Part shown: positions 13,220 to 58,502 of the stretch, one piece after another | Layout of the letters: each line of letters starts with the position of its first letter | Numbering within the stretch: position 1 is the first letter of the stretch | Assembly (NCBI RefSeq): GCF_035978755.1 | Contig: NZ_CP108414.1 | Span: 6,820,001 to 6,884,000 of the forward strand | Direction: 5' to 3' | Length of the DNA: 64,000 nt | Source: Streptomyces sp. NBC_01298 | GTDB lineage: Bacteria; Actinomycetota; Actinomycetes; Streptomycetales; Streptomycetaceae | Notes under the pieces: generated by a model | What the model saw: the letters and a program-made list of their open reading frames with translations, nothing else | Told to the model about the DNA's origin: nothing | Database searches by the model: none | Position numbers and translations under genes: made by a program

Positions 13220-13651
13220 ATGTCCGCCTCGCAGTCCGCCGCCCGCCGTACCGTCCTCAAGGGCGCCGCCGCGATCGTCGGAGCCGTCGGCGGCGGCGCT
13301 GCGCTCACCGCCTGCTCGACCGCGACCAACAGCGGCTCCGGTTCCCCGGCGGTCCCCGCCCAGCCCGTCGAGCTGGGGGCGGCGGCCGAGGTCCCGGTCG
13401 GCGGCGCGAAGCTGTTCCGGGAGAAGAAGCTCGTGGTCAGCTGCGCGGAGGCGGGCCAGTACAAGGCCTTCAGCGCCCAGTGCACCCACTCGGGCTGCGT
13501 CCTGGACAAGATTGTCGAAGGTGAGGGCAACTGCCCGTGCCACGGCAGCCGCTTCGACGTGACCACGGGCCAGGTGCTGCGCGGCCCGGCCACCGAGCCG
13601 CTGCCCGAGGTCCCGGTGAAGGTCGAGGGCGGCAACCTCGTCGCGGGCTGA
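13220..13651 (+). CDS. Rieske [2Fe-2S] lipoprotein, Tat-exported
   Basis: 143 residues from the ATG at 13220 (GGGAGA 6 bases upstream); a longer frame to 12842 is a shadow of the kinase gene. The N-terminus has a twin-arginine signal (AARRTVLKGAA) and a lipobox LTAC at the end of the hydrophobic stretch, so a Tat-exported, lipid-anchored protein is expected, as in many streptomycete lipoproteins. The Rieske motifs CTHSGC (about 91-96) and CPCHGSRFD (about 108-116) supply the two Cys and two His ligands of a [2Fe-2S] cluster. Role is likely extracytoplasmic electron transfer; the partner is not adjacent. The stop codon lies in the first unit of an 8-bp tandem repeat. Confidence 0.9.
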   Translation: MSASQSAARRTVLKGAAAIVGAVGGGAALTACSTATNSGSGSPAVPAQPVELGAAAEVPVGGAKLFREKKLVVSCAEAGQYKAFSAQCTHSGCVLDKIVEGEGNCPCHGSRFDVTTGQVLRGPATEPLPEVPVKVEGGNLVAG

Positions 13652-13708
13652 CGGGCTGACGGGCTGACGGGCTGACGGGCTGACGGGCTGACGAGTTGGC
13701 GGGCTGAC
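13645..13708. repeat. 8-bp tandem repeat overlapping a stop codon
   Basis: GGGCTGAC is repeated perfectly six times from 13645 to 13692, then a degenerate unit (GAGTTGGC) and another perfect one (13701-13708). The stop of the Rieske gene is the TGA of unit 1. Because the unit length is not a multiple of three, it places TGA in every frame. Confidence 0.9.
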
Positions 13709-52370: not shown

Positions 52371-52426
52371 TCGACGCCCGCCCCATGTAAGACCCGCACG
52401 ACGGCCGCCTGACGGCCGAGTGAACG

Positions 52427-52460
52427 GACGACCCCCGGCACCGGTGTGCCGGGGGTCGTC
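52427..52460 (+). terminator. Terminator of the suf operon
   Basis: Perfect 15-bp stem, GACGACCCCCGGCAC (52427-52441) with GTGCCGGGGGTCGTC (52446-52460), loop CGGT, then TGTTTTCCC: one of the few with a T-run in the window. Confidence 0.9.
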
Positions 52461-52563
52461 TGTTTTCCCGTCGGACCGCCCGCGTGCACCGGGAGTTGGC
52501 CATGGTGGCCGAATCTTCTCGACGGCCCGTCACAACGTGACGGCGCAGACGAGAGGACCTCCG

Positions 52564-53988
52564 TTGACCGTTCGCCTTTCACCGGCACGCCGCCTCGGTG
52601 CCGTGGGAGCCGCCGGGGCCGCTGCCCTGCTCGCCGCCGGACTGGCCGCGCCCGCCCACGCCGCCCAGGAAGCCGTCGCCGAACCGACCATCGCGCTCTC
52701 CGCCGGGCACCTGTCGGGGGCCGTCGGCGCGATCGGCGACCCGGCCGTCACCGTGGACATCGCGCAGGAGGGGATACCCGCCGCCTTCCTCAAGGTCGAG
52801 GTCCTCTCCTCCAGCAACCCGGCGGTCGCCGGGCCCGGCGACGTACGCATCGTGCGGACCTGGCAGGGCGACCGCGAACTGACCGTCCACCCGCGGGCCC
52901 AGGGCTATACCGACCTGACGCTCCGGGTGACCGGCCGCGGCGGCGGGACGGCCACGGCCACCCTCTCCTACGCCGCTTCGGCGCGGGTGGGCACGGGCGC
53001 CCTCACCACCCGCTACCTCACGGGCTCCGCCGACTCCTCGGCCGCCGTGGACGTCGGCGGCGGCTACGCGCTGGTGGCCGACGACGAGACCAACGTGCTG
53101 CGCCTGTACGACCGGCTGCGCTCGGGCGCCCCCGTGAAGACCTGGGACCTCGGCCCCGCGCTCGGCATCAAGAAGGAAGCCGACATCGAGGCCGCCGCCC
53201 GGGTCGGCGACACCGTCTACTGGACGGGCTCGCTCGGCAACAACAAGGACGGCAAGTACAAGGCCGAGCGCAACACCGTCTTCACCACCCGGATCACCGG
53301 ATCGGGCGCCGACACCGAGATCGTCTTCGGCTCCGCCTACAAGGGCCTGCGCGAGGACCTGATCGCCTGGGACACGGCCAACGGGAACCGCTTCGGCTTC
53401 GCGGCGGGCACGGCGGCCGGCAAGATCCCCAAGAGCATCGACGGGTTCAACGTCGAGGGCCTGGAGTTCGCCCCCGGTTCCACCACCACCGCCTACCTGG
53501 GCTTCCGTGCCCCGCTGGCCCCCGCCGTACCCGGCGGCAAGGCACTGGTCGTGCCCGTCACCAACATCGACCAGGTCGTGGCCGGCGCGGCCAAGCCGGT
53601 ATTCGGCGAGCCCGTCGAGATGGACCTGGGCGGGCTCGCGATCCGCGACATCCGCAAGAACGCGGCGGACCAGTTCCTGATCCTGGCGGGCTCCTGGGCG
53701 GCGGACGACAACTCCGACCCCTACGCCCTCTACCAGTGGGACGGCGTCCCGGCCCACGCCCCGGTCAAGCGGGCCGACCTGCCGACCACCGACCCCGGCG
53801 GCTGGGAAGCCGTGGTCTCCGTACCCGACCTGCGGGTGCCCGGAGCCCCCGTCCAGCTGATCACCGACAGCGGCTCCGCCGACCTGTACGGCGACGGCAC
53901 CGAGGCCAAGGACCTCGACCACCCGGAGTGGAAGAAGTCCCGGTCCGGATGGTTCGCGCTCAGCCCGATTCGCGGAGGTCACCGATGA
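52564..53988 (+). CDS. Secreted protein of unknown function, tandem paralogue 1
   Basis: 474 residues from a TTG at 52564, placed 7 bases after GAGAGG; there is no nearby ATG or GTG in frame. Signal peptide about 1-34 (RRLGAVGAAGAAALLAAGL to AHA-A). Residues about 40-145 form an Ig-like or cadherin-like beta domain (TIALSAGHLSGAVGAIGDPAV), and about 150-474 a repetitive beta region (GGYALVADDETNVLRLYDR, IYWTGSLGNNKDG, NVEGLEFAPGSTTTAYLGF) like a beta-propeller or DUF3616/phytase-like esterase fold. I do not recognise a defined family. Its stop overlaps the ATG of paralogue 2. Confidence 0.75.
   Translation: MTVRLSPARRLGAVGAAGAAALLAAGLAAPAHAAQEAVAEPTIALSAGHLSGAVGAIGDPAVTVDIAQEGIPAAFLKVEVLSSSNPAVAGPGDVRIVRTWQGDRELTVHPRAQGYTDLTLRVTGRGGGTATATLSYAASARVGTGALTTRYLTGSADSSAAVDVGGGYALVADDETNVLRLYDRLRSGAPVKTWDLGPALGIKKEADIEAAARVGDTVYWTGSLGNNKDGKYKAERNTVFTTRITGSGADTEIVFGSAYKGLREDLIAWDTANGNRFGFAAGTAAGKIPKSIDGFNVEGLEFAPGSTTTAYLGFRAPLAPAVPGGKALVVPVTNIDQVVAGAAKPVFGEPVEMDLGGLAIRDIRKNAADQFLILAGSWAADDNSDPYALYQWDGVPAHAPVKRADLPTTDPGGWEAVVSVPDLRVPGAPVQLITDSGSADLYGDGTEAKDLDHPEWKKSRSGWFALSPIRGGHR
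53676..53811 (+). repeat. 136-bp tract identical between the two paralogues (copy 1)
   Basis: 53676-53811 is identical, including third codon positions, to 55085-55220, 1,409 bp away. The neighbouring codons differ, and overall the paralogues are well diverged. This points to recent gene conversion or recombination. Confidence 0.9.
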
Positions 53989-55376
53989 ACACGCAGCATG
54001 GGAAGACGATGAAGAAGACGTACCTCGGGGCCGCCGGCATCGCCGCGCTGCTGCTCGCCGCCACGACGATGCCCGCGCAGGCGGTGACGTACGGTACGCC
54101 CACCATCTCGCTGTCCGCCTCCTACCTGTCCGGTGCCGTAGGCGCGACGGGTGACCCGACGGTGGACGTGACCGTGGCGCAGAGCGGCGCGGACGTCTCC
54201 GCGCTCACCGTGAGCGCCTCGGCCTCCAGCAAGGCCACGGTCGCCGGGACCGGCGACGTGAGCGTCACCGGGACCGGCGCGGTCCGCAAGCTGGCGGTCG
54301 CCGCGCGCGGCCGCGGCTACACCAACCTCACCGTCAAGGTGACCGGGCTGGGCGGCAAGACCGCCACCAAGACCCTGTACTTCGCGGCCTCCGCGGCGGT
54401 GCAGAACCCGGCCGAGGCGCGCTACTTCACCGGCGCCTCCGACTCCTCGGCCGCCGTGGACGTCGGCGGCGGCTATACGGTCGTCGCCGACGACGAGAGC
54501 AACGTGCTGCGCCTGTACGACCGCGCGGGCTCGGCCGCGCCGGTGCGGACCTGGGACTTCAGCTCGCAGCTCGGTGTCACCAAGGAGGTGGACATCGAGG
54601 GCGCGACCCTGATCGGCGGCACCATCTACTGGACGGGCTCGCTCGGCAACAACAAGGACGGCGAGTACAAGGCGCCCCGCAACACGGTGTTCACCACCAC
54701 GCTGAGCGGCTCGGGCTCCACCGCGCAGCTCGCGTACGGGCGTTCGTACAAGAAGCTCCGTGACGACCTGGTCGCCTGGGACACGGCGAACGGCAACCGC
54801 TACGGCTTCGCCGCCGGTACGGCCGCCGGTGAGGCGCCGAAGCAGATCGACGGGTTCAACGTGGAGGGCCTGGAGTTCGCTCCCGGTTCCACCACCACCG
54901 CCTACCTGGGCTTCCGTGCCCCGCTGGCCCCGGCGGTGATCGGCGGCAAGGCGCTGGTCGTGCCGGTGACCAACTTCGACAAGGTGATCTCCAGCGGGAC
55001 CAAGGCCACCTTCGGCGCGGGCATCGAGCTCGACCTGGGCGGGCTCGCGATCCGCGACATCCGCAAGAACGCCGCCGACCAGTACCTGATCCTGGCGGGC
55101 TCCTGGGCGGCGGACGACAACTCCGACCCCTACGCCCTCTACCAGTGGGACGGCGTCCCGGCCCACGCCCCGGTCAAGCGGGCCGACCTGCCGACCACCG
55201 ACCCCGGCGGCTGGGAAGCCATCGTGGCGGTTCCCGACCTGTCGGTCGCGGGCGCGCGGGTGCAGCTGATCACCGACAGCGGCTCCGCCGACCTGTACGG
55301 CGACGGCATCGAGGCGAAGGACCTCACCCACCCGGAGTGGAAGAAGTCCCGCGCGGCCTGGTTCACGCTGAACTGA
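53985..55376 (+). CDS. Secreted protein of unknown function, tandem paralogue 2
   Basis: 463 residues from the ATG at 53985, eight bases after GGAGG; an ATG at 54009 (MKKTYLGAAG) is the alternative. Signal peptide about 9-34. Same two-part plan as paralogue 1, with strong identity in the C-terminal propeller-like part (RNTVFTT, DLVAWDTANGNRYGFAAGTAAG, DLGGLAIRDIRKNAADQ) and little in the first 100 residues. Being translationally coupled, the two may form a heterodimer or act in sequence outside the cell (inference). The last 14 bases overlap the convergent membrane-protein gene. Confidence 0.75.
   Translation: MNTQHGKTMKKTYLGAAGIAALLLAATTMPAQAVTYGTPTISLSASYLSGAVGATGDPTVDVTVAQSGADVSALTVSASASSKATVAGTGDVSVTGTGAVRKLAVAARGRGYTNLTVKVTGLGGKTATKTLYFAASAAVQNPAEARYFTGASDSSAAVDVGGGYTVVADDESNVLRLYDRAGSAAPVRTWDFSSQLGVTKEVDIEGATLIGGTIYWTGSLGNNKDGEYKAPRNTVFTTTLSGSGSTAQLAYGRSYKKLRDDLVAWDTANGNRYGFAAGTAAGEAPKQIDGFNVEGLEFAPGSTTTAYLGFRAPLAPAVIGGKALVVPVTNFDKVISSGTKATFGAGIELDLGGLAIRDIRKNAADQYLILAGSWAADDNSDPYALYQWDGVPAHAPVKRADLPTTDPGGWEAIVAVPDLSVAGARVQLITDSGSADLYGDGIEAKDLTHPEWKKSRAAWFTLN
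55085..55220 (+). repeat. 136-bp tract identical between the two paralogues (copy 2)
   Basis: Second copy of the identical tract described for 53676-53811; it encodes the segment from LILAGSWAADDNSDP to GGWEA. Confidence 0.9.
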
Positions 55377-56277: not shown

Positions 56278-56390
56278 GCGGATCTCCCGTCCCCCGGTGC
56301 GAGCGCCCCGGTGCCGCCGCGCCGACACCGTAGCGGCAGGGGCCGGGGAAGTCCCGGGGACACGCGGATATGTACGACCGTCCATAACGA

Positions 56391-56412
56391 TGTGTACTGT
56401 CGTACGCATGCC
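56391..56412 (+). promoter_or_regulatory. SMR gene leaderless promoter/operator (repeat copy 1)
   Basis: A 22-base segment containing -10-like TACTGT (56395-56400), seven bases, then the ATG at 56408; it is identical to 56842-56863 before the regulator. An upstream TGTACGAC (56371-56378) and the GTCGTAC at 56399-56405 form an inverted pair. Confidence 0.6.
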
Positions 56413-56731
56413 CTACATACTGCTCGCCGCCGCCATCGCCGCGGAGGTCGCCGGCACCACCGCCATGAAGTTCAGCGAGGGCTTCACGAAGCTGTGGCCC
56501 TCGCTGATCACGCTGGTGGGCTACGTCATCGCCTTCACCCTGCTCGCGCAGACGCTGAAGTCGATGTCGGTGGGGACGGCGTACGCGATCTGGGCCGGCG
56601 TGGGCACGGCCGCGATCGCCGCGATCGGCATGGTCTTCATGGGGGAGGCCGCGACGGCCGCGAAGATCGGCGGCATCGTGCTGGTGATCGCCGGGGTCGT
56701 GCTGCTGAACCTCGGGGGGACCACGCACTGA
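56408..56731 (+). CDS. Small multidrug resistance (SMR/QacE-EmrE) family transporter
   Basis: 107 residues, four membrane helices. The family pattern is clear: PYILLAAAIAAEVAGTTAMKFSEGFTKLWPS with the essential membrane Glu at position 13, then GYVIAFTLLAQTLKSMSVGTAYAIWAGVGTAAIA. Dimeric proton-coupled exporter of quaternary cations or guanidinium. The ATG is preceded at seven bases by TACTGT and there is no ribosome site, so the transcript is likely leaderless. The next genes are a 15-codon ORF and a TetR regulator with the same promoter sequence. Its stop codon lies in a 17-bp tandem duplication. Confidence 0.9.
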   Translation: MPYILLAAAIAAEVAGTTAMKFSEGFTKLWPSLITLVGYVIAFTLLAQTLKSMSVGTAYAIWAGVGTAAIAAIGMVFMGEAATAAKIGGIVLVIAGVVLLNLGGTTH

Positions 56732-56749
56732 TGGGGACCACGCACTGAT
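56716..56749 (+). repeat. 17-bp tandem duplication across the SMR stop codon
   Basis: GGGGACCACGCACTGAT is present twice in perfect tandem (56716-56732, 56733-56749), giving two TGA codons. Confidence 0.9.
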
Positions 56750-56841
56750 GCCCCGCCGGAGTTCCGGCAGGGCATCGACGGGTGCCGGGGGATCCGGCCG
56801 GACCGCGCCGCGATGTGGCCGGCGGTGCGCGGGTGCCCGCG

Positions 56842-56863
56842 TGTGTACTGTCGTACGCATGCC
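56842..56863 (+). promoter_or_regulatory. Regulator leaderless promoter/operator (repeat copy 2)
   Basis: Second copy of the 22-base segment: TACTGT at 56846-56851, seven bases, then an ATG at 56859. It suggests that one regulator controls both promoters. Confidence 0.6.
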
Positions 56864-56906
56864 TCGTCTGTCGCCCGCCGCCGCCCTTACGGGCGCCGTC
56901 CGCTGA
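56859..56906 (+). CDS. 15-codon leader ORF translationally coupled to the TetR gene
   Basis: ATG at 56859, seven bases after the -10-like TACTGT, opens a 15-residue ORF (MPRLSPAAALTGAVR) whose TGA (56904-56906) overlaps the regulator's ATG at 56906 as TGATG. The peptide begins MP like the SMR protein, reflecting the shared repeat, and has no recognisable function. Because the mRNA would start at this ATG, ribosomes must enter here, and the TetR gene would be translated by termination-reinitiation. A frameshift of a longer original N-terminus is the alternative. Confidence 0.5.
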   Translation: MPRLSPAAALTGAVR

Positions 56907-57454
56907 TGGCCGGCTCCGTGCGCCGCTACGACCCGGACCGGCGGGACCGGATCATCGCCGCGGCCATCCGGGTGGTCGGCGCCCGGGGCATCGCCGGGCT
57001 CAGTCACCGCAGCGTGGCCGCGGAGGCCGACGTGCCGCTCGGCTCCACGACGTACCACTTCAAGACCCTGGACGACCTCCTGGTCGCGGCGCTGCGACAG
57101 GCCAACGAGGGCTTCGCCCGGGCGGTGGCGGACTCCGCGGCGCTGGCCGATCCGGCCGCGGACCTGGCGGGAGCCCTGGCCGGCCTGCTCGGCGAGTTCC
57201 TGGGGGCGGACCGGGCGCGGGCGGAGCTGGAGTACGAGCTCTACCTGGAGGCCCTGCGCCGTCCCGCGCTGCGGCCCGTGGCGGCCGCATGGTGCGAGGC
57301 CGTCTCCACGGCCCTGTCCGCGCGGACGGACCCGGCCACGGCGCGGGCGCTGGTGGCGGTCATGGACGGGATCAGCCTGCAGGTGCTGCTGACGGGGGCG
57401 GAGTACGACCGGGCGTACGCCTGCGAGGTCCTGCGGCGGGTGCTGCGGGCCTGA
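56906..57454 (+). CDS. TetR-family regulator of the SMR gene
   Basis: 182 residues from the ATG at 56906 (MAGSVRRYDPDRRDRII). Helix-turn-helix: GIAGLSHRSVAAEADVPLGSTTYHFKTLDDLL (about 29-60; STTYHF is typical of this TetR subgroup). The C-terminal domain contains AELEYELYLEALRRPALRPVAAAW, seen in many streptomycete TetR proteins. Adjacent to an SMR transporter with the same promoter motif, it is likely a substrate-relieved repressor of it (inference). The longer frame to 56813 includes the promoter. Confidence 0.85.
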   Translation: MAGSVRRYDPDRRDRIIAAAIRVVGARGIAGLSHRSVAAEADVPLGSTTYHFKTLDDLLVAALRQANEGFARAVADSAALADPAADLAGALAGLLGEFLGADRARAELEYELYLEALRRPALRPVAAAWCEAVSTALSARTDPATARALVAVMDGISLQVLLTGAEYDRAYACEVLRRVLRA

Positions 57455-57587: not shown

Positions 57588-58460
57588 CTACGCGCCGCGG
57601 ACCGCCTCCAGGGCGGCGGCCACGCTCGCCTCGATGTCCTGGACCGGGTAGAAGACCTCGCGGACGGTCCGGTCGCGGTCCACCACCAGCGTCAGGCGCT
57701 TCAGCCGGCTGATGCCCCCCGCCCGGAACGTCGGCAGCCGCAGCGCCGTCACCAGGGTCAGCTCCGCGTCGGAGAGGAGGGGGAAGCGGAGCCCCTCGGC
57801 CTCCGCGAACTCCCGCTGCTCGTCCGGCCGCTGGGTCGACACCCCGTGCACCGTCGCGCCCGCTGCCGTGAACTCCCCGAGCTGGTCCCGGTAGGTGCAC
57901 GATTCCAGGATGCACCCCCGCGCCCCGGGGATCCCGGCCCACCCCGGCGGGTAGGACTCGGACCGGGCGAACGCGCCCGGGAAGCCGTACAGGACGGTGA
58001 AGGGAGTGTCCGCCACCGGGTCGCGGAGCTCGCCGAACCGGTCCGGCAGCGAGAGCTCCGGCAGCCGGGTGCCGCGCAGCGCGTGGACCCGGACCGCCTC
58101 GCGCGAAGCCTCTTCGGTCGTCGCCGTCATCTCTCCCTCTCCCAGGATCCATCGGTCCCCCCAGTCCTGGAGGGCGACGAGCACCGGCAGCAGGCCGCGT
58201 CCGCGCGGGGTCAGTCGGTACGCGTGGCGCACCGGCCGCTCCTGGTACGGCTCGCGGGTCAGGACGCCCGCCTCGACGAGCAGTTTCAGCCGCTCCGTCA
58301 GGACCTTGCGGGACATGCCCAGTTCGCGCTGGAACTCGTCGAATCGGTCCACCCCGCGTGCGGCGTCGCGGACGATCAGCAGCGTCCACCAGTCGCCCAC
58401 GACGTCGAGCGCCTGGGCGATGGAGCAGTCCGCGTCGTCGAGGTGCGTGCGCTGGGCCAT
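57588..58460 (-). CDS. HxlR-type regulator fused to a PrxQ/BCP-like peroxiredoxin
   Basis: 290 residues from the ATG at 58460 (AAGGAGT just upstream). Residues about 8-112 are a HxlR winged helix domain (DADCSIAQALDVVGDWWTLLIVRDAARGVDRFDEFQ, then LTERLKLLVEAGVLTREPY), with Cys12 in the place used for redox sensing by some HxlR proteins. Residues about 140-290 are a thioredoxin-fold peroxiredoxin: RGCILESCTYRDQL has the PrxQ pattern, peroxidatic Cys183 and resolving Cys188 (CxxxxC), and LPTFRAGG, RLTLVVDRDRTVREVFYPV continue the fold. A transcription factor carrying its own peroxidase points to peroxide-linked sensing. It is divergent from an MFS exporter across a perfect palindrome. Confidence 0.88.
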   Translation of the reverse strand: MAQRTHLDDADCSIAQALDVVGDWWTLLIVRDAARGVDRFDEFQRELGMSRKVLTERLKLLVEAGVLTREPYQERPVRHAYRLTPRGRGLLPVLVALQDWGDRWILGEGEMTATTEEASREAVRVHALRGTRLPELSLPDRFGELRDPVADTPFTVLYGFPGAFARSESYPPGWAGIPGARGCILESCTYRDQLGEFTAAGATVHGVSTQRPDEQREFAEAEGLRFPLLSDAELTLVTALRLPTFRAGGISRLKRLTLVVDRDRTVREVFYPVQDIEASVAAALEAVRGA

Positions 58461-58502
58461 GGCACTCCTTTGTCCGTTGACCCGAGGTTGCCATGCTGGC
58501 AC

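Follow-up and report, generated by a model that had tools for sequence, protein, structure and literature searches.

How could a repressor be made from a promoter that it seems to control when its own gene seems to lack a ribosome entry site? This question is raised by an efflux gene, a tetR gene and the DNA between them in the 64,000-nucleotide stretch analysed here (the window), which belongs to a genome of 9.7 Mb and whose nearest named relatives are Streptomyces. An earlier note, written from the letters of the window alone, had proposed that ribosomes enter a short leaderless open reading frame (ORF) and reinitiate at tetR. We compared the locus with its counterparts in other genomes.

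An operator-like palindrome is duplicated at two start codons

The first gene of the pair, smr (56408..56731, + strand), encodes a small multidrug resistance (EmrE/EbrB-like) efflux protein of 107 aa, residues 1-93 of which match PF00893 (E 5e-29). EbrB was the best-scoring model for the product, at 99 bits and under the cut-off of 160. The protein has the Multi_Drug_Res domain and a length within the range of about 105-110 residues expected of SMR pumps, and transport is predicted. The second gene, tetR (56906..57454, + strand), encodes a 182-aa repressor of the TetR family (EbrR type) with the domains PF00440 (TetR_N HTH; 25.9 bits, cut-off 24) and PF17940 (TetR_C_31; 63.8 bits, cut-off 27.4), and displays no clear Shine-Dalgarno (SD) sequence at its start. 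Its closest solved structures were 3iuv and the entries termed 'EbrA repressor' in the PDB (3hta, 3hth, 3hti and 3htj), with E near 1e-77 over residues 5-180. We take the protein of these 3hta-type entries to be the one named EbrR, and the entries to include drug complexes.

The 22-bp sequence TGTGTACTGTCGTACGCATGCC is found exactly at 56391-56412 and at 56842-56863, and the identity extends neither way. In both copies TACTGT is followed by seven nucleotides and an ATG (56408 and 56859); the earlier note, which had placed the same 22 bases (a -10-like TACTGT, seven bases, ATG) before the SMR gene and a 15-codon ORF, was correct to the base. Absent from that note is the palindrome TGYGTAC-N4-GTACRCA, which makes up the first 18 bases of the repeat. 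Operator 1 (56391..56408, + strand) ends on the A of the smr ATG and covers the -10-like TACTGT (56395-56400) together with the presumed leaderless start of smr (P1), while operator 2 (56842..56859, + strand) covers the -10-like TACTGT (56846-56851) of a second presumed leaderless promoter (P2). Upstream of both ATGs lies the palindrome GTACTGTCGTACGC, with no SD sequence seen on inspection, and a promoter scan found no consensus -35/-10 pair.

Within the 9,695,021 bases of the genome, TGYGTACNNNNGTACRCA matched exactly at two sites, the two promoters only, which is more than chance given an expectation of about 0.1 at even base composition. Allowing up to one mismatch added one site (L003), and a reversed control pattern gave 3 matches per strand at up to one mismatch, a figure given without a split by mismatch class. 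As the sole one-mismatch site lies at this control background, a regulon past the two sites was rejected within the one-mismatch limit of the search. With the palindrome conserved at P1 and P2 and having no other exact match in the genome, binding by TetR is predicted.

To place the locus among its relatives we assembled two sets of loci. The first combined the best 80 of 319 relatives from a protein search of genome_contigs, the best 30 places from 150 genomes of the genus, the next 93 and 10 others, giving 213 loci, of which 198 remained after removal of duplicates. The second drew on 160 further genomes, 126 of which (58 of 80 and 68 of 80) passed the chosen match limit; these 126 loci yielded 118 that were new and distinct, 115 of them with SMR. 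The motif GTACN4GTACNN stood immediately before the SMR ATG in 182 of the 198 unique loci and subsequently in 109 of the 115 further loci. Among the exceptions (16 and 6 loci, respectively), 12 and 5 keep a GTAC 9-11 nt ahead of an ATG, four (L102, L112, L187 and L331) have no GTAC in that position, and at L197 the SMR start lies past the contig end, so that the promoter falls outside the assessment. An imperfect operator-like palindrome, TATGTACGACCGTCCATA (56369..56386), also precedes operator 1 in the window, with its GTAC 22 bp ahead of that of the first repeat. Relatives have a matching element 21-23 bp upstream, overlapping the -35 position; of 182 loci, 138 show a second GTACN4GT[AC]C ahead of the operator, in 134 cases at 21-23 bp.

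Because a palindrome pressed against the ATG leaves no space for an SD sequence, smr is very probably leaderless in these species, and the position of the -10-like box 7 nt ahead of the ATG fits the predicted leaderless start. Comparison thus lends support to the leaderless start proposed in the earlier note, and the repeat is probably an operator lying over the -10 region and start of a leaderless promoter. Single-base differences mark the P1 copy in relatives, such as TACAGT in L005, L043 and L045, so that it is a peculiarity of this genome that its two copies match perfectly.

Stop-start overlap of smr and tetR is maintained across relatives

We then considered how smr and tetR are joined. 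The SMR stop overlaps a tetR start codon in 287 of the 313 unique loci with SMR, 282 of them as TGATG. In the first set the overlap was present in 179 of 198 loci (176 TGATG and one each of TTGA, GTGA and ATGA), and in the second 108 of 115 loci had a direct overlap and 7 an insert. The usual layout in relatives is one promoter followed by a direct smr-tetR overlap. The 26 loci without a scored overlap comprise two that are TGATG by eye (L122, where the SMR match is truncated, and L192, where the tetR frame is interrupted in the assembly), one CTGA junction with no ATG, GTG or TTG start (L160), 20 plain inserts and three inserts carrying P2.

All 20 plain inserts contain a single relay ORF of 4-28 codons that leads from the SMR stop to the tetR start. 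The first set held 16 true inserts, 13 of which consist of one relay ORF of 4 to 27 codons running from TGATG to TGATG. The last 7 plain inserts were collected after the prediction had been set down, and all 7 were bridged, five by TGATG and two by GTGA (L232 and L289, whose relays end in a GTGA overlapping a tetR start); the relays of L229, L236 and L232 repeat or nearly repeat first-set ones, leaving 4 of the 7 as new by eye. Relay peptides vary between lineages, and the relay state requires at least 8 changes on the tetR tree, with the P2 rows excluded. Under a null of 1/2, the chance of such bridging is 1.2e-4 for the 13 loci and 0.004 for 8 tree changes. A null of 1/2 is fairer than 1/3, since inserts of length 0 mod 3 are read as N-terminal variants and remain hidden in the direct class. 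The palindrome, its adjacency to the ATG, and the stop-start overlap and its upkeep can all be read directly from the compared loci.

At L329 the junction has been copied in tandem: the relay is a duplicated tetR start (MARRYDPERRRRILGGASH, then a stop) and meets the genuine tetR at TGATG. This locus shows one apparent origin of relays, namely junction duplication giving a tetR fragment.

The window itself retains a chain of this kind, which the earlier note did not report. The end of smr is duplicated in tandem over 17 bp (GGGGACCACGCACTGAT, 56716-56749; copies at 56716 and 56733), creating a 5-codon relay, MGTTH (56731..56748, + strand), with a TGATG at either end, the first of them at the SMR stop. 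From the MGTTH stop a 52-codon relay frame (56748..56906, + strand), within which the 15-codon ORF lies in frame, leads to tetR. Stop-start linkage thus continues unbroken from SMR through the 5-codon and 52-codon ORFs to the TGA at the tetR start. The counterpart of the 52-codon frame has 45 codons in L045, where it likewise holds the mini-ORF in frame, and misses tetR in L043.

Just behind smr, before the second copy of the repeat, lies a hairpin of 13 pairs (56746..56777, + strand), likewise absent from the earlier note, a possible transcript end or barrier that has no U-tract. The segment 56745-56790 has a folding energy of -27.2 kcal/mol (z -2.8), and 1 of 200 shuffles was equally stable. 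A hairpin is found at the equivalent TGATG in L043 and elsewhere in L045. As no U-tract terminator was found between smr and tetR in the window, such a terminator was rejected there and the hairpin is retained as a possible barrier only; hairpins behind smr could separate smr from tetR transcription.

A second operator-like site and a mini-ORF precede tetR in three genomes

The 15-codon ORF (56859..56906, + strand; MPRLSPAAALTGAVR, then a stop), hereafter the mini-ORF, is a putative leaderless ORF, so assigned by sequence comparison. Its TGA shares an A with the tetR ATG at 56906 (TGATG, 56904-56908), exactly as the earlier note had positioned a 15-codon ORF whose TGA overlaps the TetR ATG. 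Among the 313 unique loci with SMR, an operator between smr and tetR occurs only in the window, in L045 (Streptomyces sp. AP-93) and in L043 (Streptomyces sp. H27-H1), and P2 is present at 3 of 316 unique loci. The inserts measure 175 bp in the window, 137 bp in L045 and 243 bp in L043. The 22-base block of operator, promoter and ATG at P2 is identical in all three, while the spacer before it (113, 66 and 193 nt, in the same order) is only patchily similar. In each genome the mini-ORF ATG adjoins the operator and TGATG is kept at tetR, with lengths of 15, 18 and 11 codons and differing peptides.

Indels in the mini-ORF are all multiples of three. The share of synonymous substitutions was 3/10 between the window and L045, 3/4 between the window and L043, and 2/7 between L045 and L043; in these three pairwise comparisons the pattern lends no support to the frame, and since the synonymous counts are not conclusive we discarded it as proof of translation. 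The peptides MPRLSPAAALTGAVR, MPCQLPTAAAAAVTGVAR and MPRLSPAAAAR have only MP and Ala-rich parts in common. An attenuator or arrest leader peptide is therefore out: the three peptides are without conservation, and they offer neither regulatory codon runs nor a conserved arrest peptide. The mini-ORF peptide has no evident role.

The energy of SD pairing at tetR is -2.5 in the window, +0.3 in L043 and -8.5 in L045; random 18-mers from the window have a median of -4.0, and the median of 193 tetR starts is -6.6. In L043, whose chain from SMR does not arrive at tetR and whose tetR lacks an SD sequence, no visible route other than the putative leaderless mini-ORF leads to tetR. These values bear on the idea that tetR is translated independently, either by weak internal entry at its own ATG or as an extension from a GTG in the operator, with the small ORF incidental. 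In all three P2 genomes the tetR frame does read upstream to an in-frame GTG in the operator; conservation of the mini-ORF frame would by itself fit such an extension too. SD-like stretches are also present in L045 and L239. However, neither the window nor L043 has a clear SD sequence relative to the random median, the GTG lies upstream of any P2 start point, and the tetR start codon overlaps an upstream stop both directly in most loci and at relay ends. Moreover, insertion of a relay shifts the tetR frame away from that of the formerly coupled ATG, and relays therefore cannot be accounted for by an extension. We consider independent translation of tetR quite improbable, and the comparison instead supports the proposal of the earlier note that tetR is fed by a terminating small ORF, since TGATG is kept at tetR in all three P2 genomes and a stop-start overlap nearly everywhere.

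A further possibility is that the insert is left over from a tandem duplication of the operon and is now decaying, with tetR of the first copy and smr of the second mostly deleted and with no present function, so that its frames and operator reflect recent ancestry. The L043 insert opens with a tetR start (CTGATGGCCGGC, MAGR...) and a stretch within it is similar to mid-tetR sequence (shuffle test, P 0.006); in its own right, this insert suggests a decayed tandem operon duplication. Compared with codon-shuffled versions, the mini-ORFs of the window and L045 are also more similar to the smr 5' end (P about 0.02 for either), with P 0.20 for L043. The test for a tetR remnant was, however, negative in the window (P 0.40) and L045 (P 0.67), and simple decay sits poorly with spacers that diverge strongly around 22 identical bases at P2 and with indels in multiples of three. 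Such an origin would in any case be compatible with present function. We regard a functionless remnant as quite improbable.

A mobile or viral origin was searched for and rejected. The 21 plasmid records that matched all fell in the 60-80% band, with the best at 65% identity over 61% of the query; 5 stretches of viral contigs matched a pattern, none was confirmed and no relative was found. The sister genomes L005 and L034 are without the P2 insert. The five near species form one well-supported clade whose inner branching the tree leaves unsettled, and the distribution of P2 needs 3 changes on a quick tetR tree. The simplest view is a single gain of P2, followed by losses or recombination.

Operator-like sites and mini-ORFs without an adjacent smr

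At two loci, L239 and L253, no SMR was found before tetR. Their tetR genes are 94% alike and were counted as one lineage; the source genome of L239 (G168) has a listed contamination of 6%. Both carry an operator-like sequence (GTACGGTCGTGGC or GTACGGTCGTGCC), an ATG, a 9-codon ORF (MAPVPGACD or MVPVPGTCD) and TGATG at tetR. The palindrome is degenerate, the distance to the ATG is one base under the usual, and L239 has an SD-like stretch at tetR (-10.2). This is suggestive of a second occurrence of the operator and mini-ORF layout, the absence of SMR concerning the locus only.

These loci also bear on a simpler scheme in which all transcription begins at P1, ribosomes from smr reach tetR through the 5- and 52-codon chain, operator 2 serves as a roadblock or looping partner and the mini-ORF is merely the 3' part of the relay. 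The intact chain in the window and L045 speaks for it, as do the single relay ORFs in all 20 other inserts. It has more difficulty with L043, where the chain falls short of tetR, with the strong hairpin between smr and P2, and with the retention in all three P2 genomes of the -10-like box, the 7-nt spacing and the ATG along with the palindrome, which goes beyond the need of a bare operator. At L239 and L253, in addition, an operator-like site, ATG, mini-ORF and tetR occur together with no neighbouring smr. Transcription from P1 only is thus doubtful in our view, and the reading with a second promoter is preferred.

At L339, where likewise no adjacent SMR was found, the tetR ATG lies 5 nt past two intact palindromes, and there is no mini-ORF. 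The tetR of this locus looks near-leaderless. As it starts 5 nt behind the operator without one, a mini-ORF is not strictly required, and entry at the 5' end may count more than the mini-ORF as such.

A proposed model for repressor supply

Taken together, these comparisons make it fairly likely, in our estimation, that the locus is an autoregulated EbrR-type efflux operon with two leaderless promoters and a tetR coupled to the mini-ORF. TetR would bind the 18-bp palindrome over the -10 region and start of both promoters: P1, which precedes smr, and P2, which lies between the two genes. Transcripts from P2 would start at the ATG at 56859 or one base ahead of it. A ribosome would then load at the 5'-terminal AUG, translate 15 codons, terminate at the TGA at 56904-56906 and reinitiate at the overlapping tetR AUG (56906), tetR having no ribosome entry site of its own. 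In this scheme the mini-ORF would stand in for smr, the upstream cistron that appears coupled to tetR in most of the genus as sampled, and P2, itself repressed by TetR, would allow the repressor to be made even when transcripts from P1 ended at the hairpin. Leaderless entry and reinitiation appear well supported by comparison; the transcription starts, mini-ORF translation, reinitiation and TetR binding are steps that we infer from the arrangement of the DNA. Counting against the model are the lack of a consensus -35/-10 pair in the promoter scan, the substitution pattern of the mini-ORF, the chain that stays open in the window and L045, the SD-like stretches in L045 and L239, the missing mini-ORF of L339, and the rarity of P2, which the two sister genomes L005 and L034 lack.

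The earlier note had described a simple device to make a little repressor from the promoter it controls. The small amount is a prediction of that note which gains no support from the comparison. The control by the repressor does gain from it, in that a putative operator lies over the promoter, but the device does not stand alone: it replaces or supplements an older smr-tetR coupling, and the frames from SMR through the relay to tetR stay open here.

More generally, selection may have left the repressor without its own entry site and dependent on ribosomes from a terminating upstream ORF, with a relay or a leaderless mini-cistron stepping in when smr is displaced or absent, and with the coupling rather than the peptide under selection. 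TetR synthesis would then be tied to every round of leaderless entry at a promoter that TetR represses. On this broader proposal we find the arguments evenly balanced.

Other features of the window

Two adjacent tandem paralogues at 52420-55376 are secreted, as judged by eye, and contain many exact repeats 1409 bp apart; a relative of these paralogues, again by eye, lies just before the mini-ORF and tetR in L239. On the - strand, the ORF at 57588-58502 combines an HxlR-type helix-turn-helix (residues 34-119) with an AhpC/TSA-redoxin domain (residues 170-296), and by its domain content is a transcription factor fused to a peroxiredoxin-like domain. At 13644-13693 an 8-bp unit, CGGGCTGA or one of its rotations, is repeated in tandem about six times.

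Comparison with known systems

Published systems are compared here as excerpts of their accounts describe them. Overlaps of the ATGA and TGATG types are common in prokaryotes (PMC6728339). Of the primary start sites of S. coelicolor, 21% yield leaderless mRNAs, among which TetR genes are prominent (PMC4895711). The closest likeness is to the coupled leaderless small ORFs of mycobacteria (Shell et al. 2015, PMC4633059), which share with the mini-ORF a 5'-terminal start codon, a short ORF and a stop-start overlap. In M. tuberculosis 23 of 220 leaderless small ORFs are coupled, and in some cases the linkage persists although the peptide is not conserved; leaderless initiation in mycobacteria is described as robust (PMC4633059). 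The mini-ORF of the window likewise has a stop overlapping the downstream start, and promotion of tetR is predicted. In contrast to the RTGA (-4) overlap of mycobacteria, the Streptomyces locus has TGATG (-1) and, unlike the mycobacterial cases as excerpted, its mini-ORF lies under the apparent operator of the repressor that it would feed, in place of a full cistron (PMC4633059).

Reinitiation from a short ORF to a gene without an SD sequence has been demonstrated for uPPE2-PPE2 of M. tuberculosis, where the downstream gene similarly depends on the short ORF through termination-reinitiation, but where the excerpted account gives the uORF an SD sequence, a riboswitch and an AUGA overlap (PMC11260477). 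Mycobacterial MIRU insertions resemble the relays in that inserted DNA carries an ORF preserving downstream coupling, yet MIRUs are repeated and apparently mobile, whereas the Streptomyces relays are short, lineage-specific sequences (review, PMC12548453, in excerpt). In E. coli a 5'-terminal AUG also opens short ORFs before genes; according to the excerpt, however, the downstream genes there have their own SD sequences and only some need the upstream AUG (ptrB -93%, rhaB +4%) (PMC4965119). That work also provides a precedent against our model, since several E. coli 5'-AUG ORFs are without effect downstream, among them that of rhaB, which has an ATGA overlap and its own SD sequence and changes by +4% on removal of the upstream AUG (PMC4965119). 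Repressor mRNA is leaderless in Tn1721 as well, but there tetR itself is leaderless (PMC4681348, in excerpt).

Like the EbrR-type pair represented by 3hta, 3hth, 3hti and 3htj, the window has the TetR match next to an SMR gene, to which it adds P2 and the mini-ORF. A literature search on EbrR, 'EbrA repressor' or 3HTA gave nothing related by title among the matches listed, and nothing on smr-tetR coupling of this kind appeared by title or abstract start among the matches listed in a search that had subscription journals mostly outside it. As far as these limited listings go, two aspects are new: a mini-ORF that lies inside the repressor's duplicated operator and would replace the efflux gene, and a many-species record of coupling kept by relay ORFs without fixed content. 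The locus also shows how the short first cistron of a transcript may be missed. One gene pair provides a natural series across the genus, from direct overlap through relays and leaderless mini-ORFs, with or without an adjacent smr, to a near-leaderless tetR. With this series one can ask whether stop-start coupling itself is selected, the peptide aside, and how leaderless entry and reinitiation set the level of a repressor.
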